Shown here one piece after another: positions 41,886-57,272 of a DNA stretch of 64,000 nt; positions within the stretch are counted from its first letter, which is position 1; every line of letters begins with the position of its first letter. Both the position numbers and the translations under genes were made by a program. The stretch is from Candidatus Zixiibacteriota bacterium (GTDB lineage: Bacteria > Zixibacteria > MSB-5A5 > GN15 > FEB-12). The DNA lies in contig CP070674.1 in assembly GCA_020351995.1 (NCBI GenBank), positions 1,949,077 through 2,013,076 of the forward strand, in the 5' to 3' direction. The notes under the pieces are model-generated. The model was not told where the DNA came from, ran no database searches, and saw nothing but the letters and a program-made list of their open reading frames with translations.

Positions 41886-41913
41886 AATATATAAGGTTTC
41901 GAGAAATTGTCAA
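41886..41913 (-). promoter_or_regulatory. Near-consensus promoter upstream of the 21-codon ORF
   Basis: Minus strand: TTGACA (41913-41908), 16-nt spacer, TATATT (41891-41886). It lies 38 nt after the stop of the last TPR-CHAT gene and would drive the small ORF and perhaps rsgA and the APH-like kinase. Confidence 0.75.
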
Positions 41914-41951: not shown

Positions 41952-44900
41952 TCAGTTGGGATTACCGGCCAGGATAAAGCCGCCCCAGAGCAGCGGGTGG
42001 CCGCAGCCGCGTTTTGCGCGAGACTGGCGGAGAACCTCCAAAGCCGATTCACGCAGAGCATCTCTTCTTGATGAGCCGGCCAGCCAGCGACGGTAGAAGC
42101 CGTCCATTAGTTCTGATGTCTCCTTGTCAGGCACTGACCACAGGCTCATTACAATCGTTTCCACCCCGGCATGCTGAAAGGCCCGGCGCAGGCCAAACAG
42201 TCCTTCACCATTGACGAACTCGCCCACCCCACTCTCACAGGCCGACAATACGGCCAGGTCTGTCCCGACAAGATTAAGACCGGACACTTCGAGGGCCGTG
42301 AGGATACCATCCTCGGTCATCGTAGAGTCGTCGCGCTCGCCTGATATCGTCCTGTTGGCTCCGGTAAGTACCAGACCGGATCTAAGCAAAGGGTTGTTCA
42401 GCAGCTCTATGCTTGTATCGACACTCTCACAGAAGAACCCATGAGTGGCCAGATGAATCACCTTCGGAGCAGTGGTCAAATCCTTCAGCGATTCTTCGCT
42501 GGCCATTGTACCGTAACGCTCGCGCAAGCTGGTTGCGTTGGCGTTTCTGAAGCAGGCGGCCACCGATGAGGCCTCAGTGCGGCTGTACGGGAGGGGATTG
42601 AACCTCTGGTCCAGACAATCGGTATTACCACGCATGTCCGGACCAAAGAGCTCGTCAGAGATGATAGTCCTGGTGGCAGTTCCGTCAAAATCGGGGTCAG
42701 CGAAGAGCAGTATCTCTCCTTCCGACTCCATATAGCCTTTTTGTTTTATCAGATCGCGGCCTGACGAGAGGTAACTGATACGGTATTTTTCAATGGCATA
42801 AGACCCGTCGGGCAGCACGAGTATCTCTAGAGGAAGCAGATTTAACAGGCCGTCGGGGGAAACGTATATATCGCTTTCCGCGCTCGATAAGGGGGCAAAA
42901 AGCAGGTCGTATAGCTGCCTCGTGACTTCGTTAAGTCTTTGCTCAGCTATCCTGGCCGCCGCCGAATAGATTTGAGGTTGAGCTTTGTAGATCATTTCGC
43001 GTGCGGTGATAATCAGGCTGTCGATCCGATGAGCGTCACCAAGGTCCTTAAGTTTCACATTGCCGGTCCGATTAACGGTAAAAGCCAAATAACGAGGCGG
43101 TTCCAGTTTGTCATCACCGGTAACGGACATATCCAGGTTGGCCGGTTGATATCGGACGAACTCCCACAACACTGCACCGTTTGGTATCAATGACACGATA
43201 TCACCTACCTCAAACCGTCGTGCTGCAAGGGCATCACTAAACTCACTGCAGTGGAGGCTAAGAGCAACTTCAATGGAGTCTTTCATCTTGTACAAGGTGG
43301 CCACGCTGTCAATATAGTACCCTCCGGCCAGCGACAGGGAAGCGATAAGACTGTTGATTTCATTGAGTCGATCCAGCTCGACCAGAATTTCGTCATCGTA
43401 ATGACAGTAGGCCGCCTGTTTTTCAGCCATCACGGCCTCGATTACCATCGCCTTCGACTTGAGAAGCATCTCCAGCGCCAGCTTTCTGGACGAAGGTGCT
43501 TTGTCCTTTAGAGCCAGGGAGAAGACAGTCGGGTCAACGATGGGATATTTGGAGATCCAGACCAGTTTCTGCTGTTCGGATGAATACGGGAAGACGTTTT
43601 CCAGGTAACGCTGACTCCAGTCGATGAATTTGTCATAAGAATCACGGCTTTCTGCTGACATCCCGGCGCAGGCATACAGCCGACCAAGGTCTTTGCGAAA
43701 CTTGGCTACCTCGGGGTGCTGTGGGCCGAGGGCAGTTTCGAGAATACTCACCGCCCGTTCCTGAATTGGCCGGGCCTGGTCATACTTTCCCATGTGAGTG
43801 TAGAGATTAGCCAGATTGTTCAGAGCGTGGGCCAGCCCCGGGTTCTGCGGACCGAGGGCTTCCTCACCGATTTCTATCGAAAGCCTCAGGACGGAATCAG
43901 CTTCGCTATAGCGATGCAGAGCTTTATAGATCAGTCCGAGGTTGGATAGGCCGATGGCGATACTGCTGTACCGGGGACCGAAAAGTGCCTCCAAAAGCGC
44001 AAGTGCTTCTTCCTGGTTTGTCTCCGCCTGCTCAAGCCGCTGAGCATCGTAATACACCATTGCAAGATTCAGTTTCGCCACGGCATTGGTTTCTGATGTA
44101 TCTTGCTCGGGAAACTCCCCGAGGATGCTAAGAGCCTGCTGGAACATCTCAATCGCCTCGTCATACCGCCCTTGCCCATGATATATAAGCGCAAGGTCAC
44201 CCATCACATCCGCCACACCCGGACTTCTCTCGCCGCGTACCTGACGATAAATTTCGAGAGCCCGCATGAACTCTGTTTCCGCCTTATCAAAACTGCCCAG
44301 CCGGTAGTATAAAAATCCAACATCCCGGAATGCCGTCGCCAAGGGAAGGCTGGATTCACCGTAGATCTTCGCCGCTAGGAGTTTGGTCTGCTGATACAGT
44401 GGCATGGCTTCCATAAACTGACCCTGATCGTCAAAAAGATTGGCAAGCAGCTTGATGGTGTGGTAATATCTTGGATACTCTGTCCCAAAGATGGTCTCAA
44501 TAAGAGGCAGCGCGCGGTGAGCGTAAGCTTCGGCCTCCTGGTATTTTTGTTCATTTTTCGAAACAGCGCCCATCCGGTAGACTATCTCGGCGAAATCGGG
44601 ATGAAGCGTGTCCAGAGTTCGCTGTCTTATATCAAAAGCGGCATAGTATAACGATTCGGCCTGCACATAGTTCATAAGGTTTAGTTGCTGCAATTGACCC
44701 CGGTAGTAAAGCACCTCGGCTACCTCGGGATGAGCGGAACCAAATATGGCCCCCCGAAGCTCAGCGGCTCGCACATAGAATGAATCACTTTCCTCAAAAC
44801 GGTCCATAAACCTGTAAACATTGGCGAGACGCAGATACGTGGTCGCGATATCCGGATGCCTCGTGCCGAGATGCCGCAGGCGAATTTCAAGTGCCATCAC

Positions 44901-45692
44901 ATAGAGTGACTCGGCTGGAGCATTGTCGTTACGGAAGTAAAGTGACATGCCGATCCACTCGAGGCAGTCTGCAACTTCGATACTCCCATCACCGAAGTGT
45001 GCCTCGACGATGTCCATAGCCCGGCGCGAGAGCTGTTCGGCATCATCATAATACCCCAATTTGATTAAGACCCGCGCCATGTTCAGGCAGCTGCGGGCGA
45101 CCGCCGGGTGCTCGGGCCCAAGCAAGCTATCACGCATGATGAAGGCGCTGTCGATGTACGTAACGGCATTGATACCCCTGCCCAACCAGTAATACGTGAC
45201 ACCCAGCGCGTCGAGAGCCTCGGCAACGCGAGCGTCATGCGAGCCGAAGGCTTTCTCTCTGATATCAAGGGCACGCCTTGCCAGCGGCTGAGCATCATAA
45301 TACTTGCCCATCAGGCGCTTGACTTCGACCAGCTTAAAAAGGGCATCCGACGTTTCGACAGCATCAGGGCCGAAGATTTTCTCAGCGGAAGACAGCAGAG
45401 CGGAATAGGCCTCTTCGGCGGCAACAAAGGAATCAAAATAAACGGGCGTGCGGACACCGTCGGGAAAGAAGATGATATCAACGGTGCTGTCGGTACTTGT
45501 GTACTGCCATTCGGCGGCCTGAACGGCCTGGCGGTAAACGGTACGTGCGGAATCGAGCTGACCGGATGCCGCCAGTTCCTCGGCTACGGGTAGCCAATCC
45601 TCGTAGGGTTGGCTTGCCAGAGAAGACAATGCCAAGGCCGCTAACGTCGGCAGGATCCACAATTTCGTTTTCTGTGAGGGAGACCTCCTCAT
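41952..45692 (-). CDS. Secreted TPR-CHAT protein 1 (putative caspase-like protease), last gene of the sigma operon
   Basis: 1246 residues. Signal peptide to about residue 27 (A-L-A-L-S-S-L-A-S), then about a dozen kinesin-light-chain-type TPRs of 42 residues (L-G-P-E-H-P-x-V-A-x-S-L-x-x-L-A pattern) from about 30 to 640, a helical linker, and a CHAT domain from about 950. The catalytic pair is His1084 (T-H-G) and Cys1152 (S-A-C-E-S-G). The C-terminus G-G-F-I-L-A-G-N-P-N is shared with the two upstream paralogues. CHAT domains are caspase-like peptidases; TPR versions respond to or recruit partners. It follows the second CHAT gene by 28 nt. Periplasmic location is predicted from the signal peptide. 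Confidence 0.93.
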   Translation of the reverse strand: MRRSPSQKTKLWILPTLAALALSSLASQPYEDWLPVAEELAASGQLDSARTVYRQAVQAAEWQYTSTDSTVDIIFFPDGVRTPVYFDSFVAAEEAYSALLSSAEKIFGPDAVETSDALFKLVEVKRLMGKYYDAQPLARRALDIREKAFGSHDARVAEALDALGVTYYWLGRGINAVTYIDSAFIMRDSLLGPEHPAVARSCLNMARVLIKLGYYDDAEQLSRRAMDIVEAHFGDGSIEVADCLEWIGMSLYFRNDNAPAESLYVMALEIRLRHLGTRHPDIATTYLRLANVYRFMDRFEESDSFYVRAAELRGAIFGSAHPEVAEVLYYRGQLQQLNLMNYVQAESLYYAAFDIRQRTLDTLHPDFAEIVYRMGAVSKNEQKYQEAEAYAHRALPLIETIFGTEYPRYYHTIKLLANLFDDQGQFMEAMPLYQQTKLLAAKIYGESSLPLATAFRDVGFLYYRLGSFDKAETEFMRALEIYRQVRGERSPGVADVMGDLALIYHGQGRYDEAIEMFQQALSILGEFPEQDTSETNAVAKLNLAMVYYDAQRLEQAETNQEEALALLEALFGPRYSSIAIGLSNLGLIYKALHRYSEADSVLRLSIEIGEEALGPQNPGLAHALNNLANLYTHMGKYDQARPIQERAVSILETALGPQHPEVAKFRKDLGRLYACAGMSAESRDSYDKFIDWSQRYLENVFPYSSEQQKLVWISKYPIVDPTVFSLALKDKAPSSRKLALEMLLKSKAMVIEAVMAEKQAAYCHYDDEILVELDRLNEINSLIASLSLAGGYYIDSVATLYKMKDSIEVALSLHCSEFSDALAARRFEVGDIVSLIPNGAVLWEFVRYQPANLDMSVTGDDKLEPPRYLAFTVNRTGNVKLKDLGDAHRIDSLIITAREMIYKAQPQIYSAAARIAEQRLNEVTRQLYDLLFAPLSSAESDIYVSPDGLLNLLPLEILVLPDGSYAIEKYRISYLSSGRDLIKQKGYMESEGEILLFADPDFDGTATRTIISDELFGPDMRGNTDCLDQRFNPLPYSRTEASSVAACFRNANATSLRERYGTMASEESLKDLTTAPKVIHLATHGFFCESVDTSIELLNNPLLRSGLVLTGANRTISGERDDSTMTEDGILTALEVSGLNLVGTDLAVLSACESGVGEFVNGEGLFGLRRAFQHAGVETIVMSLWSVPDKETSELMDGFYRRWLAGSSRRDALRESALEVLRQSRAKRGCGHPLLWGGFILAGNPN

Positions 45693-45720
45693 CCTAAACT
45701 ACATACGTGAATAAAGGCAA

Positions 45721-48700
45721 TTAGTTCGGGTTGCCGGCCAGAATAAAGCCGCCCCAGAGAAGTGGGTGGCCACAACCTCGTTTTTCACGAGACTGGTTGA
45801 GAATTTCCAGGGCCGATTCTCGCAGAGCATCCCGTTTGGTTTTACCGTTCAGCCAGCGCCGATAGAAACCATCCATGAGTTGTGAGGTTTCCCTGTCCGG
45901 TACCGACCACAGGCTCATGACAATTGTCTCAGCACCGGCATGCTGAAAGGCCCGGCGAAGACCGAACATACCTTCGCCATTTACGAACTCACCTACCCCG
46001 CTTTCGCAGGCGGAGAGGACAGCAAGGTCGGTTCCGACAAGATTCAACCCTGATACTTCCAACGCTGTCAGGATACCATCCTCGGTCATGGTCGAGTCAG
46101 CCTCACCGGAGATAGTTCGGTTGGCCCCGGCCAGAGCCAATCCGGAGCGCAGGAGGGGGTTGTCTTTTATGGTGGCAGTTTCTTTCTCGGTCTCGCAGAA
46201 GAATCCATGAGTGGCCAGGTGTAGTACTCTAGGTGGTTCTGATATCCTTTTGAGAATGTCCTCCAGTGCCAAAGAATCGTAGTATTCGTTAACCTCGCTC
46301 TCACCGAGATCCCTCATATGCTTAGTGACCGATTCGGCTTCGGTTCGACTATGACCAAGACGGGTAAAATCCGTCTCCAGGCAGTCGAGTATGCCTCGCA
46401 TAGGCGGTCCGTGGAGTTCAGCATCCAACGACACCGACGACAACATTGTCGCAGGGTCGATCACAGCGCCCGGCTCGGCAGAATCGAAATCGGGATCAGC
46501 GACCACGTACATGCTGCCTTCTGGCGGCGGTGTATCGCGGTACCTTAACAGATCGCGCCCGGACGACAGGTAGCTCAGACGGTAGTTTTCTATCAGATAA
46601 GACCCATCGGGGGCAGACAGGATCTCAAACGGCAAGAGGTTAAGTAATCCGTCGGGGGAGATAAAAATCTCTGTTTTGTTGTCCAGAATTTCAGCCAGCG
46701 GCGCAAAAACCACTTCATAGAGACGACTGGTCGTTTGCCTGAGTCGGTCTTCAGCACTGACCGCTGCCGGTGAGTAGATCTGACCCTGAGTTCTATAGAT
46801 GAGTTCGCGGGCGGACATAACGAGACTGTCGATCAGGTCGGCGGGGCCAATATCGTGGAACGCGATTCTGCCATTGCGGTCGGCGCTTATGGCCAAATAT
46901 CGGTCAGACCCATTGTCCAGACTGTCCAAGGAAGATCCTTCGATATCCACCGAAGTATACCTGTTGATTTCATAGAGTACGCCAGTCTCGGGGATGGCGC
47001 GATAGATGGCCTGCAGTTGAAAGGACTGCGAAGCGAGATCATCTTTGAACTCGCTGCAGGCGATACTCAATTCCGCTTCCAGCGAATCCTTGGTCTTGTA
47101 AAGACTTTGTATGCTGTCGGCGAAGGAATCACTCCAGACATCGGTGAATGACATATTGGCTATTTCAGCACAAATGGCGCTGTGCATCTTGAAATTGTGG
47201 ACGATTTCCGGGTTTTTAGAGCAGTAGGCGACTTCTTTCTGAGACATCATAGCTTCCACCACAAACGCTTTTTGTCTCAGGACCATCTCGAACCCGAGTT
47301 CAAAGAGGTCGGACATGCCTTGGGCGGTCGCCAAGGTCAGCAAGACATCATCGGAGATGGGATACTTTTCGGCCCAGAGCAACTTTCGTTCCTCAGATGA
47401 ATAAGAAAACACGTGCTCTATGAACTGGGCGTAGCACTCCGTATATTTTTCATAGGCGGCCCTACAGTTGTCGTAATCACCACCCATAGCGTACAATCGG
47501 GCCAGTCGGCGAGCGCAACCGGAGGCGTTGGATCTAAGAATATTATTACCTGTCATCCAAACCTGTAATGCTCGCGCCATGGCCTGCTGACTCTTGTCAA
47601 TCTGCCCGAGACGCTCATACGTAATACTCAGATCCGTAAGGATAGACGCATAATAGGCGCTCTCAGTATCGAGAGCCGTGTCTGCCAGGGAAGCTGCAAT
47701 CTCAAAGTGCTCAAGGGCTTTGCGCACGTCCTTGCGGCCCTCGTAGATGCAACCGAGATAGTGGTGTGTTTCAGCGATCTTGTCAGCCCTTTGCGATTCT
47801 TCCCAAATCGGCAGGTAATCCGTCAGAAGCGACTCCGCCTCGGAGTATTTTTCCAGCTCCCGCAGGGCGTCGGTCATATTTAGCACGGCATCGGCGGCCG
47901 GTTGACTTCGGGGTCCGTATAGTTCTTCGAGGAATGTTTTCTGATCCAGGTAGTAGGCCAGCGCCGCATCCCAGTCCTCCTGTTCAGACTTAAGTCTGGC
48001 AAGGGTCAGGTAAGTTTGGAACATTTTGGGACGCTCTGGATGTCGCGGCCCGTATACTTTCTTTTGAAGCTCCAGGGCTCTTGTTAGATAGTGCTCGGCC
48101 TCTGCCGGTCTCTCCAACTTATAATACAACCAACCGACGGCCCAATTTCCCATTGCCGCCCAAGCACTCTCAGGGCCATAGACTGATTCCAAGATGCGCA
48201 GCCAGCGCTCACGCACCGGTTTCATATCAGTGTACCGTACCTGGAAATTAAACAGGTTGCCAATATGCGACAGTGTCGAGGCCACTTCCCCATGATTAGG
48301 TCCGTAGGCTTTCTCACGAATTCGAAGCGATTCGAACAGGTAATGCTCAGACTCATAGTAATTTCCCTGTGAGTAAAGAGCGACCCCGATGTCTTCCAGC
48401 ACACGTGCGATCTCAGGATGATCGGCGGAGAAGATTTGCTGCCTTATATTCAGGGACCTTCTGAAACGTTCTTCGGCCCTGGAATACTCCTTGGCCAGTT
48501 GAAAATTCCAGCCGCTGAATCTCAGTATGTCGGACAACTGTTCATTTTCAGAACCGAACCGTTTTTCGGTGACGTCGATTGCCCGCGTGTACAGGGAATC
48601 CGCCACTTCATACTCTTTGGTCAGGGACATGATATTAGCCAGGTAAGTCAGGCTCTGGGCTAAAACGGCATGGTCCGGCTCAAGATTAGATTCCGCGAGC

Positions 48701-49254
48701 GAGAGCGCATTTTGGAAAGTCTCTTTTGCCTGGTCGAATTTCCACGTCCTGTAAAGACTTCTCCCGTAGATGTTCATTGCCCCTATCGTAAGGGCGTCAG
48801 CGGGTCCAAGAAGTTTCTCCAGGGCGGCCAACGCAACCTCGGATGCCTGGGCAGCTTTCGGGTACATGTCAAGTACCGAGTAGGCCTGCGTTAGTTTAAG
48901 AAGCACTGTGGCGGTCAGCAAGTGCTCTACACCGAATGCGCTGTCCGCGCCAGCAGCCAACTGTTCATAGGTCGCAATGGCCGATTCATAGCTGGAGAAG
49001 AAGTAGTGGTGCAGCACTCCGGACTCGTAGACGATTATGTCGACAGTGCTGTCGGATTTTGAGAATTGCGTTTCGGCTAATTTCAGAGCCTCTTCGAATA
49101 AGATCTGGGCAGAATCGGCATTGCCGGCGGCAGCCTGCGTCTGGGTGTGCGCGAGTACATCCTGCCACGACGCGCACAAGCCGACTTCGCTTGCCACCAG
49201 CAGGCAAATGCCTACTGCCACCAACTGGAAAGCTCTAAGCAACGTATTATTCAC
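45721..49254 (-). CDS. Secreted TPR-CHAT protein 2 (putative caspase-like protease)
   Basis: 1177 residues from a GTG (49254) with GGGGTG just upstream. Signal peptide to about residue 28 (V-G-L-C-A), TPR array to about 620, linker, CHAT domain with His1016 (T-H-G) and Cys1083 (S-A-C-E-S-G). The TPR region is more diverged from the other two than the CHAT end is. Its last 407 nt are about 96% identical to those of the third CHAT gene. The N-terminal block shares the S-D-S-T-V-D-I-I segment with its paralogues. Lies between the other two CHAT genes, with 40- and 28-nt gaps, in one operon. Confidence 0.93.
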   Translation of the reverse strand: MNNTLLRAFQLVAVGICLLVASEVGLCASWQDVLAHTQTQAAAGNADSAQILFEEALKLAETQFSKSDSTVDIIVYESGVLHHYFFSSYESAIATYEQLAAGADSAFGVEHLLTATVLLKLTQAYSVLDMYPKAAQASEVALAALEKLLGPADALTIGAMNIYGRSLYRTWKFDQAKETFQNALSLAESNLEPDHAVLAQSLTYLANIMSLTKEYEVADSLYTRAIDVTEKRFGSENEQLSDILRFSGWNFQLAKEYSRAEERFRRSLNIRQQIFSADHPEIARVLEDIGVALYSQGNYYESEHYLFESLRIREKAYGPNHGEVASTLSHIGNLFNFQVRYTDMKPVRERWLRILESVYGPESAWAAMGNWAVGWLYYKLERPAEAEHYLTRALELQKKVYGPRHPERPKMFQTYLTLARLKSEQEDWDAALAYYLDQKTFLEELYGPRSQPAADAVLNMTDALRELEKYSEAESLLTDYLPIWEESQRADKIAETHHYLGCIYEGRKDVRKALEHFEIAASLADTALDTESAYYASILTDLSITYERLGQIDKSQQAMARALQVWMTGNNILRSNASGCARRLARLYAMGGDYDNCRAAYEKYTECYAQFIEHVFSYSSEERKLLWAEKYPISDDVLLTLATAQGMSDLFELGFEMVLRQKAFVVEAMMSQKEVAYCSKNPEIVHNFKMHSAICAEIANMSFTDVWSDSFADSIQSLYKTKDSLEAELSIACSEFKDDLASQSFQLQAIYRAIPETGVLYEINRYTSVDIEGSSLDSLDNGSDRYLAISADRNGRIAFHDIGPADLIDSLVMSARELIYRTQGQIYSPAAVSAEDRLRQTTSRLYEVVFAPLAEILDNKTEIFISPDGLLNLLPFEILSAPDGSYLIENYRLSYLSSGRDLLRYRDTPPPEGSMYVVADPDFDSAEPGAVIDPATMLSSVSLDAELHGPPMRGILDCLETDFTRLGHSRTEAESVTKHMRDLGESEVNEYYDSLALEDILKRISEPPRVLHLATHGFFCETEKETATIKDNPLLRSGLALAGANRTISGEADSTMTEDGILTALEVSGLNLVGTDLAVLSACESGVGEFVNGEGMFGLRRAFQHAGAETIVMSLWSVPDRETSQLMDGFYRRWLNGKTKRDALRESALEILNQSREKRGCGHPLLWGGFILAGNPN
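45724..46130 (-). repeat. CHAT 3' end, near-identical to 49298-49704
   Basis: 407-nt block from the last sense codon inward. By eye it differs from its counterpart at about 17 positions with no indels; identity drops sharply just beyond. Confidence 0.85.
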
Positions 49255-49294
49255 TTAATCACCCCATTTATAATCATCAATCGTGAATTCTTCT

Positions 49295-52200
49295 TCAGTT
49301 TGGGTTGCCGGCCAGAATAAAGCCGCCCCAGAGAAGTGGGTGGCCACAACCTCGTTTTTCACGAGACTGGTTCAGAATTTCCAGGGCCGATTCTCGCAGA
49401 GCATCCCGTTTGGTTTTACCGTTCAGCCAGCGCCGATAGAAGCCTTCCATGAGTTGTGAGGTTTCTTTGTCCGGTACTGACCACAGGCTCATGATAATTG
49501 TCTTGGCACCGGCATGCTGAAAGGCCCGACGAAGACCGAACATACCTTCGCCATTGACGAACTCACCCACACCGCTCTCGCAGGCGGAGAGGACAGCAAG
49601 GTCGGTTCCGACAAGATTCAACCCTGATACTTCCAACGCTGTCAGGATACCATCCTCGGTCATAGTCGAGTCAGCCTGACCGGAGATAGTTCGGTTGGCC
49701 CCGGTAAGAGCCAGACCGGACCTCAAAAGAGGACTGTTTTTCATGATCGGAGCCGATTCAGAACTTTCACAGAAGAAGCCGTGAGTGGCCAAGTGCAGAA
49801 CGCGTGGCGGTTCATCGACGGACTTGAGAATCTCTTCCACAGCGTTGTCATCGTAGTATTCCCCCACCCTTGTGGCTCCAGCAGCCCTGAGGGTCGCCGA
49901 GACTGATTCCGCCTCGGCCCGGGTGTGGCTCAGCCGGCTAAACCCGGCATTAAGGCAGTTTCCCACGCTGCGCATATCCGGACCATAAGTTTCCGATGCC
50001 AGTGATACCCCTGTCAAGCTGGAGTCTTGCCTGACGGTCATGTCACCGATGCCGTCAAAATTCGCGTCAGCCATGACCAGTACTTCACCATCGGCTTCTA
50101 ATTCTCTCTCGTATTTCAGCAAGTCGCGACCGGATGACAGATAGCCGATACGGTAGTTTTCTACTGCATAGGAGCCATCGGTCATTGGTAATATTTCGAA
50201 CGGGAGCAGGTTCAACATGCCATCCGGCGCAATAAACACATCTCCGCTTACACCAATCGACGCTGCCAGTGGCTCGAAGAGCATGGCAGAAAGCTGTGAA
50301 GTGACTTCATTCAGCCGATTCTCGGACGCCAGGGCGGCTGGTGAATATATCTGACCCTGGGCTTTGTATATTATTTCACGGGTTAGAGTTATCAAGCTGT
50401 CAATCTGGTGGGCGTCCCCCAGGTCGCTGGCCGAAATTTCACCGTTGTGACGGACGAGGAAAGCGAGATAGCGCGGTGTACCGAGCTTAGCCTGGCCTAT
50501 AACGGAGCTGTCGAGGTCATGCGGTTCGTACTTTACGAATTCCCACAAGACAGAGCCATCCGGAATGGCGGACAGGATGTCGTCCAGCGCGAAGCGACGG
50601 GCCGCGAGGGCATCGCCGAACTCGCTACAGTGTCGGCTGAGCGTAATTTCGATAGAGTCCTTTACCTGGTAGAGAATCTGCAGGCTGTCGGCCAGTTCAC
50701 CGCCCGCCATCGCGACTGAGGCAATCTCGGTATGCACTTCACTGAGCCGGTCGAGCTGTTCAAGCAGAGCAGAATCATAGGTGCAGTATGCGACCTGCCG
50801 TTCGCTCATGACGGCCTCGACTACCACCGCTTTTGATTTCAGCACCATCTCCAGCGCAAGCTTGCAAGCCGCTTCACTCTTGTCCCACAGGGCCAGCGAC
50901 AATATTGCGTGGTCGAGAAGAGGATATTCTTGTATCCATCGCAACCGCTGGTTCTCCGATGAGTACGGGAAAACATTTTCCAGAAACCGCTGACTCCAGT
51001 CTATGAATTTGCGATAAGTCTGAAGACACCTCTCCGATTTTCCAGCGTAGACGTACATTCGGCCCAAATCGCGACAGAACTTGGCTACCTCAGGGTGCTC
51101 GGGTCCCAGCGCATGTTCAAGAATGCTGACGGCTCGTTCGAGAACCGGTTCAGCCTCGGCATAGCGACCCTGATGAGTGTACACATTGCCCAGGTTGTCG
51201 CAGGCATGGGCCAGGGCCGGGTGCTGTAGCCCCATCGACTCCTCGGCAATCTCGATCGAAAGTCGCAGGACAGAATCAGCCTCACGGTAGCGTTCCTGAC
51301 TGTCATACGTGAGCCCAAGATTGAGATAGCTGATGGCTACCTGGTAATGCCGCGGGCCATGTGTTCGGGCGAAGATTTCGACAGCCTGCTCCAAAGAAGA
51401 TGCTGCCTGGTCATAATCCTTCAAGCTCCAGTAAAGCCCTCCGAGATTCATTAGCGCAGGAGCGATCTGTTTGCTGGTATCCCCGAAAAGTTTCTTGTCA
51501 ATCTCCATCGAGCGGCGATACAGTTTCTCAGCCTCCGCAAAGCGACACTGGACGTCATACGTGAGCGCAAAATCGTTGAGAACACTGGCTACACTTGTAT
51601 GTTCGGGCCCGTAGATGGCCTCCATGCACGAGAGGGCTTCTTTCAGATACTTCTCTGCCTCGTCGAACCTGCCCAGCCGCCTATTCACTACTCCCACGTT
51701 CCGCAGAGCCCAAGCAAGGGCGTCATTACCCGGTTGGTGAATTTCTGTCTGTATACTCACGATTTTTTCGCGAATCGGCAAAGCCTCCGAAAATTTGCCC
51801 TGGTCATGGAGACAGTTCGCTACATCCCAAAGATAACGTGAATAGTCACTCTTATTGAGTGGTTCGACTTGCGATATGATCTCTGCCGCTTGCGTGTATA
51901 GCGATTCCGCTGTCTGATAATCGTTATATTTATTGTAAAACAACCAGGCAAGAGCGCGAAGGCTGTAAGCTATCTCCGTGTGCACAGGATCGTAAAGCTC
52001 ACGGCGTATTTCCAGCGCCCTTACGTAAAGTGATTCGGCCGCCGCATGGTTGCCGTCCATCGCCCGGGCGTGTGCCAGTCTGGTGACCAACCGAGCTACG
52101 TCGTCGGAGACTTTCCCATATTGTTCCTCCCACACCGGCAGGACAGCTTCATAGGCCTTAGCAGCGCGCCGGTAATCGTCGAGACAATACGCTATGCGCC

Positions 52201-52933
52201 CCTCTACATCCCGGAATCTGGACAGTTCAGCGGCGTCCTGCGCGTAGGCTTTTTCTACAATTGTCCAGGCCCGCAATATCAGGGAGTCCGCATGGTGACA
52301 CTTGTTCTGATAACGAAATTGATCCGCCAGGTAGTACAGACACTGGGCGACGAGAGGATGATCAGAGCCCCCTACCTCCTCGGCCATGTTGAGAGCCTCC
52401 ACAAGCAAACTCTCCGATTTGTCCAACCGGTCCCAGTAATAATTTATCTTGGCCTGAAGTAGCAGGACCTCAACCACCTTGAGACTGCGCCGGCCGGATT
52501 GTTGCTGGCGCAGTACCAGAGCCTCGTTGGCAATTGTCTCGGCAACTTCATACTTCTCCTCCCGGTAGTAAGCTTTGGCCAGCTTATGATGCAGTTCGGC
52601 CGTTTGAGGGGCGTTATGACCGAAGATGATTTCCGCCCCCGAGAGCAAACGGGAGTAGACCTGCTGGGCCTGTTCGAAACTTCTAAAATACGCCCGATGA
52701 GGATAGCCGCCATCAAAATACACGACCCGAACCGTAGAATCGGATTGAGCATACTGATTTTCGGCCATCAGCAGTGCTCGCTGATATGCTGATTGAGCCG
52801 AATCAACGTTTCCCTGTTCAGCGAACAATTCAGCCTGCATGAGAAGATCTTCCCACGTCTGAGATGCAGCCTGATTTGCAAAAGAAAAAAGGGCAATAAG
52901 AAGTATTGCCCTCGCGGATATCTTGAGCATCAT
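49295..52933 (-). CDS. Secreted TPR-CHAT protein 3 (putative caspase-like protease), first CHAT gene of the operon
   Basis: 1212 residues from ATG 52933 (AAAGGTG upstream; the next codon is also ATG). Signal peptide to about residue 24 (N-Q-A-A-S-Q), long 42-residue TPR array (for example E-A-E-K-Y-L-K-E-A-L-S-C-M-E), linker with F-I-D-W-S-Q-R, and a CHAT domain with His1051 (T-H-G) and Cys1118 (S-A-C-E-S-G). It begins 64 nt after the anti-sigma stop. The N-terminal segment between the first TPR helices (S-D-S-T-V, then a Y-F-x-S-F aromatic strand) is found in all three CHAT proteins. Probably a periplasmic protease whose TPRs recognise protein partners. Confidence 0.93.
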   Translation of the reverse strand: MMLKISARAILLIALFSFANQAASQTWEDLLMQAELFAEQGNVDSAQSAYQRALLMAENQYAQSDSTVRVVYFDGGYPHRAYFRSFEQAQQVYSRLLSGAEIIFGHNAPQTAELHHKLAKAYYREEKYEVAETIANEALVLRQQQSGRRSLKVVEVLLLQAKINYYWDRLDKSESLLVEALNMAEEVGGSDHPLVAQCLYYLADQFRYQNKCHHADSLILRAWTIVEKAYAQDAAELSRFRDVEGRIAYCLDDYRRAAKAYEAVLPVWEEQYGKVSDDVARLVTRLAHARAMDGNHAAAESLYVRALEIRRELYDPVHTEIAYSLRALAWLFYNKYNDYQTAESLYTQAAEIISQVEPLNKSDYSRYLWDVANCLHDQGKFSEALPIREKIVSIQTEIHQPGNDALAWALRNVGVVNRRLGRFDEAEKYLKEALSCMEAIYGPEHTSVASVLNDFALTYDVQCRFAEAEKLYRRSMEIDKKLFGDTSKQIAPALMNLGGLYWSLKDYDQAASSLEQAVEIFARTHGPRHYQVAISYLNLGLTYDSQERYREADSVLRLSIEIAEESMGLQHPALAHACDNLGNVYTHQGRYAEAEPVLERAVSILEHALGPEHPEVAKFCRDLGRMYVYAGKSERCLQTYRKFIDWSQRFLENVFPYSSENQRLRWIQEYPLLDHAILSLALWDKSEAACKLALEMVLKSKAVVVEAVMSERQVAYCTYDSALLEQLDRLSEVHTEIASVAMAGGELADSLQILYQVKDSIEITLSRHCSEFGDALAARRFALDDILSAIPDGSVLWEFVKYEPHDLDSSVIGQAKLGTPRYLAFLVRHNGEISASDLGDAHQIDSLITLTREIIYKAQGQIYSPAALASENRLNEVTSQLSAMLFEPLAASIGVSGDVFIAPDGMLNLLPFEILPMTDGSYAVENYRIGYLSSGRDLLKYERELEADGEVLVMADANFDGIGDMTVRQDSSLTGVSLASETYGPDMRSVGNCLNAGFSRLSHTRAEAESVSATLRAAGATRVGEYYDDNAVEEILKSVDEPPRVLHLATHGFFCESSESAPIMKNSPLLRSGLALTGANRTISGQADSTMTEDGILTALEVSGLNLVGTDLAVLSACESGVGEFVNGEGMFGLRRAFQHAGAKTIIMSLWSVPDKETSQLMEGFYRRWLNGKTKRDALRESALEILNQSREKRGCGHPLLWGGFILAGNPN
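49298..49704 (-). repeat. CHAT 3' end, near-identical to 45724-46130
   Basis: 407-nt counterpart of the block at the end of the second CHAT gene; see that entry. Confidence 0.85.
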
Positions 52934-52997
52934 CAGTTCACCTTTCCCATTTCCCGGTGAACCGCTGTGCGAACCGAATCAGTTATTCAGCCTGCGG

Positions 52998-53684
52998 CTA
53001 CCGGCGTACTTCAAACACGTACACTTGCTCTCGGCCGGGATCGGTGCCTTTAGGGTCGGATATGACCAGGCGGTAGGTGCCTTTGCTCATGCGACCCAGC
53101 GGAACCACAATCCTTCCGGTTTCGTACTCATCAAAGCCGGTGAAATTGTCGATCGACATAACCTCGGTGCCATCGGTGTCTTCAATCACCAGCCGATATT
53201 TTTTACCGACCTCGGCACCCGGGAAGACGAACGAAATCAGACCATCATGGTCCGAGGCTTCATTGAAAACTGCTGTGGCGATTGATCGAGAAGGTATGAG
53301 GCTGATTGACTGAATCTGCCGAAGCTCCGAGTCACCGTCTTTCATCCCTTGATAGGCGGGATAGATCATCAGGGCCAGGAGAAAGAAGGCCACCGCCGGT
53401 CGGAACACGAGTGGTGTTTCCGGCCAGAGGTAGCGCAGAAGGTTGGTAACCAGCGAAGGCTGGCGCTCTTTAGCTTCCGCCGCCATCCGAGCCTCGCGCC
53501 GCACATCCATATCGGTGCGCAGCAGGGTTGAGGCTTGATCGAACCGGGCTACTTCCTCATAGCAGCTTTCGCAACTGAGAAGATGAATCTCAAACTTTTC
53601 GGTGTCTTCCACCGAAAGGGCACCCAGTTCGTACGCATGTCGAAGCTCGCCTATAGCTGAATCCGAACACTTTTTAGCCGTCAT
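52998..53684 (-). CDS. Membrane anti-sigma factor with zinc finger and periplasmic beta domain
   Basis: 228 residues. I start at ATG 53684, which has GGAGGAG just before it and leaves one nucleotide after the sigma stop; an in-frame upstream start would overlap sigma and lacks a ribosome site. An N-terminal zf-HC2 domain has Cys6, His34, Cys38 and Cys41 (H-L-L-S-C-E-S-C), which bind zinc and hold the sigma factor. One membrane helix lies at about 93-112 and residues 113-228 form a beta-rich outer domain (Y-R-L-V-I-E-D, G-T-Y-R-L-V-I-S-D). Such proteins release sigma when the outer part senses a signal or is cut. The three secreted CHAT proteases downstream are natural candidates to make or modify that cut; this is inference. 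Confidence 0.9.
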   Translation of the reverse strand: MTAKKCSDSAIGELRHAYELGALSVEDTEKFEIHLLSCESCYEEVARFDQASTLLRTDMDVRREARMAAEAKERQPSLVTNLLRYLWPETPLVFRPAVAFFLLALMIYPAYQGMKDGDSELRQIQSISLIPSRSIATAVFNEASDHDGLISFVFPGAEVGKKYRLVIEDTDGTEVMSIDNFTGFDEYETGRIVVPLGRMSKGTYRLVISDPKGTDPGREQVYVFEVRR

Positions 53685-53685
53685 T

Positions 53686-54213
53686 TTATACTCCTCCTTC
53701 AAGGCAGTCACTGAGCATCTTGCGGCTGCGGTTCAGCATGACATAGAGGTGGTTGGACTTCATTTCCATGCGCTGGCAGATTTCTTCGGTGTCGAATCCC
53801 TGATGAGCTAAGTTGAGAACCCGGGCATAACGGCGGTTGGACTTGATAAGCTTCCGCAGGCAGTCCATCAGCCTTTTCTTGAAGATTGGGTCCAGGTCGG
53901 CTGCCGCCGGTTTGTCCAGATATTCGATGTGCTCCGTGCTGACCATTTTCTTCTGCCGCAAGTTTTTGCCTTGTAAATAGTTACCTATTTTGTTCCGGAG
54001 CACCTGGTACGCCCAAGCTTCAAAATTCTCTTCCGGTGAGTCCGTTTTGAGCTTTTCAAGTACCGTTATGCATGCTTCCTGCGCCATATCTTCACAGTGC
54101 TCCTCTCCTATTCTTCTTTTAGCGAGAAGAACGAATCTTACGCGGAGATACTCGAAAATCTGGGTTTCGGCGGCTTTATCGCCCTGTTTGGCTTTGATTA
54201 CAAGTTGCTGCAA
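53686..54213 (-). CDS. ECF-like RNA polymerase sigma factor
   Basis: 175 residues starting at TTG 54213; no ATG or GTG fits, and an AAGAG sits about 10 nt upstream. Region 2 (residues about 20-85) has the C-E-D-M-A-Q-E-A core-binding and -10-recognition helices and F-E-A-W-A-Y-Q-V-L-R-N-K. A short linker leads to region 4 (about 120-170) with an HTH (T-E-E-I-C-Q-R-M-E-M-K-S-N-H-L-Y). Region 1 is absent, as in ECF factors. It should direct RNA polymerase to a stress or envelope regulon. It is the first gene of the operon and is stop-start coupled to its anti-sigma factor. Confidence 0.93.
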   Translation of the reverse strand: MQQLVIKAKQGDKAAETQIFEYLRVRFVLLAKRRIGEEHCEDMAQEACITVLEKLKTDSPEENFEAWAYQVLRNKIGNYLQGKNLRQKKMVSTEHIEYLDKPAAADLDPIFKKRLMDCLRKLIKSNRRYARVLNLAHQGFDTEEICQRMEMKSNHLYVMLNRSRKMLSDCLEGGV

Positions 54214-54253
54214 AGTGTACAGCTCTTAGCTTAAGTGTTTCCCCTCTTAAGTT

Positions 54254-54283
54254 AATATAGCCTAACATTCTATTGTCTGTCAA
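54254..54283 (-). promoter_or_regulatory. Near-consensus promoter of the sigma/anti-sigma/CHAT operon
   Basis: Minus strand: perfect TTGACA (54283-54278), 18-nt spacer, TATATT (54259-54254). This looks like a housekeeping promoter rather than the operon's own ECF target, which suggests constant basal expression. Confidence 0.72.
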
Positions 54284-54569: not shown

Positions 54570-55193
54570 TTAGTGGCCTATGTGTTTATCCCAGTAATAC
54601 TTATTGTAGTCGTCTCTTGCGAAGCCCAGTAATCCGAGAGCTAAGAACTTTCGGCCGTGTTCACCGGCCCGCTCCACAAGTAAATCCTGACTTTTTTCGT
54701 AGATGAGAAGCCCGGTTTCGAGTTCATATAATCGCATCTTAGCCGTTCCTGAGGTGACATAACCCGGTGCCGACATATAGAAAACTACCGGGAAGAGGAC
54801 GACATCGGAGTTATCAAGAGCGACTTTGAGATAATCGAATTCGTCATCGGTAAGTGTCTTCAATATAGATGGTCCCTGCTTGAAATCATCTTTTGTGTAC
54901 TCCACTGATCCCAACTTGTTGAGGATTGATATTAAGCGATCATCAGCATTGATGGCTTGTCGTATGTCAGCCGGTGCGACCAGGCTCTGCGCCTTGCCGG
55001 TGTCATCGAAGATCAGCACTGATATCGAATCTATAAACTGTGCATCATCATCGACAACCGGAATCATGGCTAACTTCACCGCAGAAGGAGTTACCTTGTA
55101 GCTGAAGCCCTTGTTAACATAGAGCCCTCCCCCGCATCCAGCGAGATAGACCAAAGCCACAGATACCCACAGTACGCTCAGAGTCCGTTTCAC
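54570..55193 (-). CDS. Lipoprotein of unknown function
   Basis: 207 residues. I start at GTG 55193 (MKRTLSVLW...), which has GGAGG five nucleotides before it; a TTG four codons upstream is less likely. Signal peptide ends in lipobox L-A-G-C (about Cys20). The mature protein has alternating beta/helix with K-L-A-M-I-P-V-V-D-D-D, an I-R-Q-A-I helix, V-L-F-P-V-V-F-Y, and M-R-L-Y-E-L-E-T-G-L-L-I-Y-E-K-S near residue 165, a layout that recalls CsgG-like or periplasmic assembly lipoproteins. No catalytic residue. Likely anchored to a membrane facing the periplasm. Single gene; the structured element at 54358-54478 lies downstream. Confidence 0.8.
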   Translation of the reverse strand: MKRTLSVLWVSVALVYLAGCGGGLYVNKGFSYKVTPSAVKLAMIPVVDDDAQFIDSISVLIFDDTGKAQSLVAPADIRQAINADDRLISILNKLGSVEYTKDDFKQGPSILKTLTDDEFDYLKVALDNSDVVLFPVVFYMSAPGYVTSGTAKMRLYELETGLLIYEKSQDLLVERAGEHGRKFLALGLLGFARDDYNKYYWDKHIGH

Positions 55194-55256
55194 TTCAACC
55201 TCCAAATAACTTATTGGTTTGCAAAGCCGATTGATTACGATAGGTTACCGCCCGGC

Positions 55257-55601: not shown

Positions 55602-57272
55602 TTAATATATATAATGGCTGAGCGACACCCCAGCAAAATACCGATCTTCCGTATAGCGACTGTTGACATAGTACCACGAGGCATCACCGGGTCGGTCGTG
55701 TCGGTACCCGACCGATGCCGTCAGGGCAGTTGGAATAGAGATTCGGTAAGTTACGCCTCCGGCGAGCAAAAACTCTTTCTTTGTGGTCTCGCGAACATCC
55801 GGATCCAAAAGAAAATCCGATTCGGGATCAGCCTTGAAATATTCGTACGAATAGTCGGTTCGGAAGCTCAGCTGTGTTCGTGAGTTCAGTATGTAGGTCG
55901 CGGTTCCGACCAGATCGAAACGATAACGGCTGTCGATATCGTTTTCGAATCCATATGTCGATGACCCGGCATTGGAGCCATCGTCGTCAACGACATACCT
56001 ACTGTACCATTCAGCCCGGGTGATATGCGAGCTGAAGTAGTATTTCCCGGAAGCCCACAAGTCGAGTTGCCATTGGCGCGACAGGGGTTTGGCGTATTCG
56101 ACTATGGCCCGGAGGTAGGTGTCATACGCTTCAGTGATGGTGGATTGGTAGCGATATTCATGCTCGTTGTAATCATATAAGGTGTCGACCACGCCGGGGT
56201 TTGAGATATCGTAATAGGAAAGGAAGCGGTAGTAATCAGAGATGGTCGTCGAGCGATCCCGGTTGTGTGAGTAATCGAATCCCGGTCCGAGCCGCGCCCT
56301 GAAACCGAAGGTTCTGCCGTAACGCGGGAAATAATCCCAGACATCCTGGATGAGAAGACAGGCCCGGCCGTTGCCGGCATCGCTGATTCCCACATCGCTC
56401 AGATAGCTCATGATGGCATCGAGCGATTCTATCTTGCGAATACGCTCGTCGACGGCGTGCTCGAGTCGATTCTGATACACAATATCGCAGAGGGCGAGCA
56501 TTTCGTCGTGAGTCGGCTCGCGCAAGAGGACACCATTGCTACGCAACTCCTCGATTATATACATAGCTGTGGAAGCGTAGTTACCCCGGTAGAGACGTCC
56601 CCAGCCCGGCAGCAGAACCATGGATACTAATACGTGCCTCATGTCAGGTGAGTGTTCACTGCTACGTTCTTCCAGCAGGGTTCTGACCCGCGGCGCATAA
56701 TAATCTACTCTGTCTTGAAAATAGTAATCGGTAGCACCCGGTGATTCCTCATACATGAATCTTACCGAGGCCCCGATCGACGCAAAGAAATCTCCAGAAA
56801 GGTACTGACCGACGTCGGCGTAGGCCACCGTGCTGAGCTCTCTTCGGGCGCTTTTTGACTCGCTTCGGGACAGTTCGTATTCCTCAACTATTTCGCTGAA
56901 ATCAGACCCTGTTCGGTTTCTCGTAGTATTTTCCTTTTCCCAGTCATAAGAACCTGTAATGTCGAGTGTGGTAGACAAGAAGCGTGGCACCGTTTGGTAC
57001 CGATAAGCCAACCTGGACTTGAGCCCGCCGGACCAGGTGGCTATATCACGAGTCTGAGTGGAGTGATGGAGATTCGAGGTCGGACGATAGGTCGAGCTCC
57101 ATATGTCATAATTATTAAGGCCGAGATTGCCCATAACTTTCCATTCAAGGTCCACAAATTTCTCGGGAATGTAATCACTAATATTGAATGTTGATTCCTC
57201 CGCTAACGCCATACTGCCCCCGGCCGCGGCTAGCAACGCGGCACAGCACATCACAAGGAATGATTTCCGCAC
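55602..57272 (-). CDS. Predicted outer-membrane beta-barrel protein
   Basis: 556 residues. Signal peptide ends at about A24 (M-A-L-A). The rest is rich in amphipathic, alternating aromatic strands (for example L-S-F-R-T-D-Y-S-Y-E-Y-F, T-A-S-V-G-Y-R-H-D) and ends in S-L-S-H-Y-I-Y, an aromatic-terminated strand typical for BAM-inserted barrels. A helical plug-like segment spans about 200-330. It is co-directional and coupled with csaA, which could assist its export. No named family recognised. Position 57273-57415 upstream holds no gene. Confidence 0.82.
   Translation of the reverse strand: MRKSFLVMCCAALLAAAGGSMALAEESTFNISDYIPEKFVDLEWKVMGNLGLNNYDIWSSTYRPTSNLHHSTQTRDIATWSGGLKSRLAYRYQTVPRFLSTTLDITGSYDWEKENTTRNRTGSDFSEIVEEYELSRSESKSARRELSTVAYADVGQYLSGDFFASIGASVRFMYEESPGATDYYFQDRVDYYAPRVRTLLEERSSEHSPDMRHVLVSMVLLPGWGRLYRGNYASTAMYIIEELRSNGVLLREPTHDEMLALCDIVYQNRLEHAVDERIRKIESLDAIMSYLSDVGISDAGNGRACLLIQDVWDYFPRYGRTFGFRARLGPGFDYSHNRDRSTTISDYYRFLSYYDISNPGVVDTLYDYNEHEYRYQSTITEAYDTYLRAIVEYAKPLSRQWQLDLWASGKYYFSSHITRAEWYSRYVVDDDGSNAGSSTYGFENDIDSRYRFDLVGTATYILNSRTQLSFRTDYSYEYFKADPESDFLLDPDVRETTKKEFLLAGGVTYRISIPTALTASVGYRHDRPGDASWYYVNSRYTEDRYFAGVSLSHYIY

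Follow-up and report, generated by a model that had tools for sequence, protein, structure and literature searches.

Analysis of a 64,000-nucleotide stretch of the genome of a Candidatus Zixiibacteriota bacterium (assembly GCA_020351995.1, contig CP070674.1, positions 1,949,077 to 2,013,076; hereafter the window) revealed an operon of five genes on the minus strand, coding for an extracytoplasmic function (ECF) sigma factor, a zf-HC2 membrane anti-sigma factor and three large TPR-CHAT proteins. Bacterial caspase-like enzymes have mostly been described in the context of defence and cell death. Judging from sequence conservation, it is probable that this operon acts as a switch from the cell envelope to transcription, in which the exported CHAT proteins would be dedicated site-1 proteases cutting the anti-sigma factor after Arg 142 of its extracytoplasmic stalk. 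Such cleavage is supported by two conserved features, namely the invariant arginine of the stalk and an invariant acidic residue on helix alpha-1 of the CHAT domain.

Structure of the operon

All five open reading frames (ORFs) are present and, from the sigma gene onward, are separated by gaps of 1, 64, 40 and 28 nucleotides. They lie behind a sigma70-like promoter (TTGACA-18-TATATT, 54254-54283, minus strand) that agrees with the consensus at 11 of 12 positions, so that the five-gene operon described by an earlier reading of these letters (the sequence-only reading) stands.

The sigma gene (53686-54213, minus strand) starts at a TTG codon and encodes a protein of 175 amino acids with matches to TIGR02937 (57.9 bits, cut-off 42.9) and to Sigma70_r2 (PF04542; 37 bits, cut-off 24). 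Sigma70_r4_2 reached 17.8 bits, below its cut-off of 25.7, and the protein lies outside the CASP-sigma family (NF041236, 31.9 bits against a cut-off of 100). The anti-sigma gene (P0004; 52998-53684, minus strand) most likely begins at the ATG at 53684, one nucleotide past the sigma stop codon; ORF P0004 itself opens at a GTG at 53711. Its product matches zf-HC2 right at the cut-off (22.2 bits), the residues of the HxxxCxxC motif being H43, C47 and C50. A single transmembrane segment (residues 101-119 by hydropathy) appears as helix 101-127 in the AlphaFold2 (AF2) model (mean predicted local distance difference test score, pLDDT, 82.6; predicted template modelling score, pTM, 0.48) and is followed by an extracytoplasmic beta-sandwich. 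A fold search of the PDB with the anti-sigma factor returned diffuse beta-sandwich matches only, and a comparison with plasmid records gave no match. Other zf-HC2 proteins from related genomes score at most 25 bits on the profile of this anti-sigma factor, against 300 for the window protein.

An invariant arginine in the anti-sigma stalk

The stalk position of R142 (P0004 numbering; codon at 53286-53288, minus strand) is occupied by Arg in 36 and by Lys in one of the 37 distinct anti-sigma factors linked to CHAT genes. Among sequences held out of the alignment, Arg was found at the site in 18 of 18 and was followed by Ser, Ala or Thr. The short-type membrane anti-sigma factors share an extracytoplasmic motif, IxLxPxR[SA], and the proposed cut would fall within it (IxLxPxR/S). 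The stalk motif occurs in short zf-HC2, long two-zinc and non-zinc types of anti-sigma factor; it is found in none of the other zf-HC2 proteins of related genomes whose sequences were displayed. In a 26-sequence alignment of mixed types (A7), R142 is the sole invariant column. The predicted membrane segment and the Arg are 16 to 30 residues apart (47 in one case). In the AF2 model, R142 lies in a loop (139-146) between strand 133-138 and the beta-sandwich, in a block with a mean pLDDT of 69; such an invariant position within a loop of low order would be expected of a protease site or of a docking site. Soluble partner proteins found at related loci also carry an invariant Arg, located between their two halves (R102 in family A3, R81 in family A4).

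As a docking motif would likewise give an invariant Arg, the beta-domain and Arg stalk could instead form a pseudosubstrate that inhibits the CHAT proteins, signal-induced loss of the anti-sigma factor then freeing both sigma and proteases. A precedent is offered by separase, the closest eukaryotic fold, which is held by the pseudosubstrate inhibitor securin (PMC6858450). We nevertheless consider this inhibitor model unlikely: a small residue follows the Arg in every case, as at a typical cut site (Ser, Ala, Gly, Thr or Asn in 37/37, against a background of 31%), and one stalk would face up to three proteases per operon.

Recurrence of the gene set across the phylum

CHAT genes are present in 70 of 98 related genomes, and 124 distinct CHAT genes were classified from those related-genome neighbourhoods that were retrieved. 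An ECF sigma gene lies within 3.5 kb of 86 of these 124, and within 2 kb in all but one of the 86 (85). Among the remaining 38 CHAT genes, 20 are near a contig end or a masked stretch and three are members of tandem arrays. The window genome carries 21 genes with sigma-70 region 2 in its 3.6 Mb, from which about 4% adjacency is expected by chance; chance is therefore excluded as the source of the association. The sequence-only reading had counted a lack of CHAT genes in homologous operons as evidence against it; such operons do carry them. In a reverse search of 132 genomes of the phylum, a profile restricted to the extracytoplasmic domain of the anti-sigma factor (A5) gave 10 matches in six previously unexamined genomes (G105, G106, G107, G119, G122 and G125); judging by CHAT coordinates, nine of the 10 have a CHAT gene as neighbour. 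Scanning contigs with one CHAT protein yielded only one relative, which belongs to candidate division GN15. Plasmid records contained CHAT matches in other phyla, and the neighbourhood of the Flammeovirga plasmid CHAT has no listed sigma gene; the Nonomuraea record offers no annotation that could be used.

Three arrangements were distinguished. In the first, sigma factor, membrane anti-sigma factor and exported CHAT are in line; in the second, the set is the same but the CHAT gene is convergent; in the third, the sigma gene is accompanied by a soluble partner of about 196 amino acids and by a cytosolic CHAT of about 920, with a subtilase often coming next. At loci of this third kind (L087, L090, L088 and others), the soluble partner has a conserved FDSxxLPLPEGVR motif and the subtilase is secreted. 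The compartments of partner and CHAT match, membrane partners going with exported CHATs and soluble ones with cytosolic CHATs (counts 36/2/4/40, export being judged by hydropathy only), and most of the exceptions involve an ORF that is truncated, a partner wrongly assigned or a long extension at the N-terminus. Covariation of topology as many independent events was considered and downgraded, the CHAT tree giving one change.

The position of the CHAT genes downstream in the same operon, and their occurrence as a separate convergent gene in several related loci, would also suit a scheme in which the beta-domain senses the signal and the sigma factor drives the CHATs as exported effector proteases of a lysis, predation or cell-death type. 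This scheme seems to us quite improbable. It leaves unexplained both the invariant stalk Arg and the match of compartments between partner and protease, and the operon promoter is of the consensus sigma70 type rather than an obvious ECF promoter, with similar boxes in congeners; by eye, such boxes are in the same place at three congeneric loci. Autoregulation of the operon by its ECF sigma factor is likewise unsupported, the promoter being sigma70-like. A second ECF sigma gene was observed directly upstream of the sigma/anti-sigma/CHAT operon in the congener G002 (L034:17156-17734).

The predicted CHAT proteases

The three TPR-CHAT genes, all on the minus strand, are the only CHAT genes of the 3.6-Mb genome. 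CHAT3 (P0003; 49295-52933) encodes 1212 amino acids with the dyad H1051/C1118, CHAT2 (P0002; 45721-49254) 1177 amino acids with H1016/C1083, and CHAT1 (P0001; 41952-45692) 1246 amino acids with H1084/C1152; their CHAT domains match PF12770 with 223, 231 and 223 bits, respectively (cut-off 24). Several predictions made from the sequence alone are borne out here. The spacing of His and Cys, given as 67 to 68 residues, was measured as 68, 67 and 67 for CHAT1, CHAT2 and CHAT3; by hydropathy, all three N-termini resemble Sec signal peptides, which argues against a cytosolic location; and the enzymes do not look inactive, His and Cys being intact in 82 of the 82 CHATs linked to a sigma-partner pair.

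An AF2 model of P0002 (residues 600-1177, pTM 0.84) matched the TPR-CHAT of Craspase with Z 29 over about 400 residues, separases with Z 25-27, and the anti-sigma factor DdvA and gingipain R with Z 19 each. In this model the CHAT region of P0002 adopts the caspase/separase fold, and peptidase activity is predicted for the window CHATs. That they are instead non-proteolytic periplasmic co-sensors binding the beta-domain is very improbable: their long TPRs, similar to those of kinesin light chain (KLC), would suit the binding of a peptide or protein, but their catalytic dyad is invariant across those 82 linked CHATs and the catalytic end is their most conserved part.

With respect to a proteolytic role, separases, gingipain R, metacaspases and paracaspases cleave after basic residues, the residue being Arg for separases and gingipain R (PMC4357240). 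Gingipain R binds the P1 arginine through Asp163 of helix alpha-1 (RgpB D163), and Asp365 is found on that helix in MALT1. The CHATs have a Glu (E972 in P0002, E1007 in P0003, E1040 in P0001) at the start of their equivalent helix; it is conserved in 41 of 41 sequences of alignment A6 and, by class of linked partner, in 38/38 of the membrane type and 43/44 of the soluble type, the other one having Asp. Binding of a P1 Arg through the S1 Asp of separases (D2151/D2070) was rejected, because the equivalent position (W+8) is non-acidic in these CHATs; the alpha-1 Glu is therefore the candidate for the residue that holds the P1 arginine, by analogy rather than by superposition.

CHAT1 and CHAT3 have one orthologue each in G002, with TPR identities of 44% and 52%, and both the TPRs and the middle regions of the paralogs reflect older relationships than their catalytic ends. 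In the final 128 residues, where the catalytic Cys is located, copies of the same genome are the most similar: DNA identity between CHAT2 and CHAT3 is 96% (91% if only the third positions of codons for shared residues are counted), and protein identity is 95% between the two copies of G002, against 84-85% between orthologues. In the window, the 300-nucleotide C-terminal tract of CHAT2 (45723-46022, minus strand) has copies at 49297-49596 (95% identical) and 41954-42253 (79%). The catalytic end has thus undergone concerted evolution in two genomes, while the TPRs stayed orthologous. Diverged TPRs combined with a homogenised catalytic end most likely mean that the paralogs feed different inputs into one anti-sigma factor. 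Of the two explanations of the triplication given in the sequence-only reading, this favours different inputs; nothing was found in support of the other, a cascade.

Proposed mechanism

Taken as site-1 proteases, the CHATs would work as follows. By analogy with its family, the zf-HC2 domain of the anti-sigma factor would hold the ECF sigma factor at the membrane. Binding of a ligand to the N-terminal TPRs may activate the CHAT domain, in a manner similar to the allosteric activation of Csx29. There, binding is relayed by way of the TPRs to the CHAT dyad, whose rearrangement results in a sigma inhibitor being cut (PMC10028731). The dyad of the window proteins would then cut the stalk after Arg 142, as its conservation suggests, and intramembrane proteolysis of the M50/RseP type would presumably free the sigma factor; an M50 site-2 protease is encoded in the genome. 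The three paralogs would allow different inputs to converge on a single anti-sigma factor.

Several observations weigh against this mechanism. In the soluble-partner family A3 the Arg is mostly followed by Pro, a poor P1' residue, and cleavage fits poorly there. Some Arg-bearing anti-sigma factors have no adjoining CHAT gene (G056, G069 and G073). The position of the separase S1 Asp is, as noted above, non-acidic in these CHATs. The homogenised catalytic ends could be explained by neutral gene conversion. Finally, the match of compartments represents a single change on the CHAT tree, without independent replication, and amounts to matching compartments in two clades rather than repeated coevolution.

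In one genus, an exported CHAT and an Arg-bearing anti-sigma factor were observed at separate loci (L056 and L066 with L234 and L235), which suggests that the two can work in trans.

Neighbouring genes and other features

The immediate neighbours of the operon code for RsgA, a CsaA-like tRNA-binding protein and two unknown proteins. Upstream of the sigma gene lie two minus-strand ORFs (54570-55205 and 55602-57272; 211 and 556 amino acids) without a match in Pfam, NCBIfam or PHROG. Between CHAT1 and rsgA, the minus strand also has, at 41913, a strong promoter of the sigma70 type (TTGACA-16-TATATT) and, at 41663-41638, a terminator hairpin of 10 bp, which together could produce a transcript of about 220 nucleotides, without an Rfam match. 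Rfam and tRNA scans of the window detected nothing, and PADLOC returned generic TPR matches only.

At related loci, the sigma gene has large neighbours, most of them divergent from it, that encode surface proteins with Por_Secre_tail/FlgD-Ig sorting domains (L041:5435-9631, L043:14075-17938, L047:12308-16318, L058:1334-5821, L075:2608-8307, and others at L072 and L073). Only large ORFs were tested in this survey, and nearly all of the large neighbours tested had such domains. Such surface proteins, which have no counterpart beside the window operon, may be targets of the regulon or cargo that is sensed. At one locus, a gingipain-type Peptidase_C25 gene with a sorting tail (L060:14817-19622) is divergent from a sigma/anti-sigma/CHAT operon.

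Comparison with known systems

With this gene set recurring through the phylum, the idea that envelope signals reach gene expression by a caspase-type route becomes testable. If confirmed, such a route would make signalling a general role of CHAT proteases and hint at the origin of the sigma-control logic of Craspase, and the anti-sigma arginine would offer an exact and easily tested cut site.

Craspase, or CASP, of the type III-E systems of clustered regularly interspaced short palindromic repeats (CRISPR) comprises Csx29, Csx30 and CASP-sigma. It resembles the window operon in that its TPR-CHAT protein, which shares the CHAT fold (Z 29), acts by cleaving an inhibitor of a sigma factor of the ECF type. 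However, Craspase is cytosolic and is activated by Cas7-11 and target RNA, and Csx30 is not a zf-HC2 membrane protein, whereas the window operon has exported proteases and a membrane anti-sigma factor. Craspase is reported to cut after L407, not after Arg, and to have Lys in place of the S1 Asp of separase (PMC9729208). No CRISPR gene was recognised among the few immediate neighbours of the window operon, a result obtained without a search aimed at Cas7-11 or Csx30.

In the DdvS/DdvA system of Myxococcus (PDB 8rot, 8rw5), an ECF sigma factor is similarly controlled by a transmembrane anti-sigma factor and a CHAT domain, and DdvS sets an anti-phage island (PMC12288465). In DdvA the CHAT domain is fused to the anti-sigma factor, whereas here the proteases are separate, exported and present in up to three copies.

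ECF54 genes, located beside genes for CHAT, subtilase and carboxypeptidase-domain proteins, share the ECF-CHAT neighbourhood. Proteolytic control has been proposed for this group, which is described as being without an anti-sigma factor (PMC8999054); the window operon, in contrast, has a membrane anti-sigma factor and no subtilase. The loci with a cytosolic CHAT, a soluble partner and a subtilase resemble the ECF54 context (PMC8999054), and the soluble partner of about 196 amino acids may be an unrecognised anti-sigma factor of such ECF54-like loci.

With DegS-RseA-RseP, the window operon would have in common an exported site-1 protease (as proposed here), a membrane anti-sigma factor and an M50 site-2 protease. 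DegS is a PDZ serine protease, whereas the proposed site-1 protease of the window belongs to the caspase/separase-like enzymes of clan CD, carries TPRs and is encoded in the sigma operon itself.

A search of open-access full texts turned up no account that combines exported CHATs and a membrane anti-sigma factor, although the ECF classification (Casas-Pastor 2021) was not covered and an earlier mention is possible. A wider scheme, somewhat doubtful at present, is that of a phylum-wide, CRISPR-free envelope 'separase' pathway, with exported TPR-CHATs as dedicated Arg-specific site-1 proteases and several sensors for one lock, of which Craspase (CASP), DdvA and ECF54 might be offshoots derived from an older sigma/inhibitor/CHAT module. 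The individual parts are known and the principle has precedents in Craspase, DdvA and DegS/RseA; what is new in the window operon is the combination, together with the stalk Arg and the multi-protease design.

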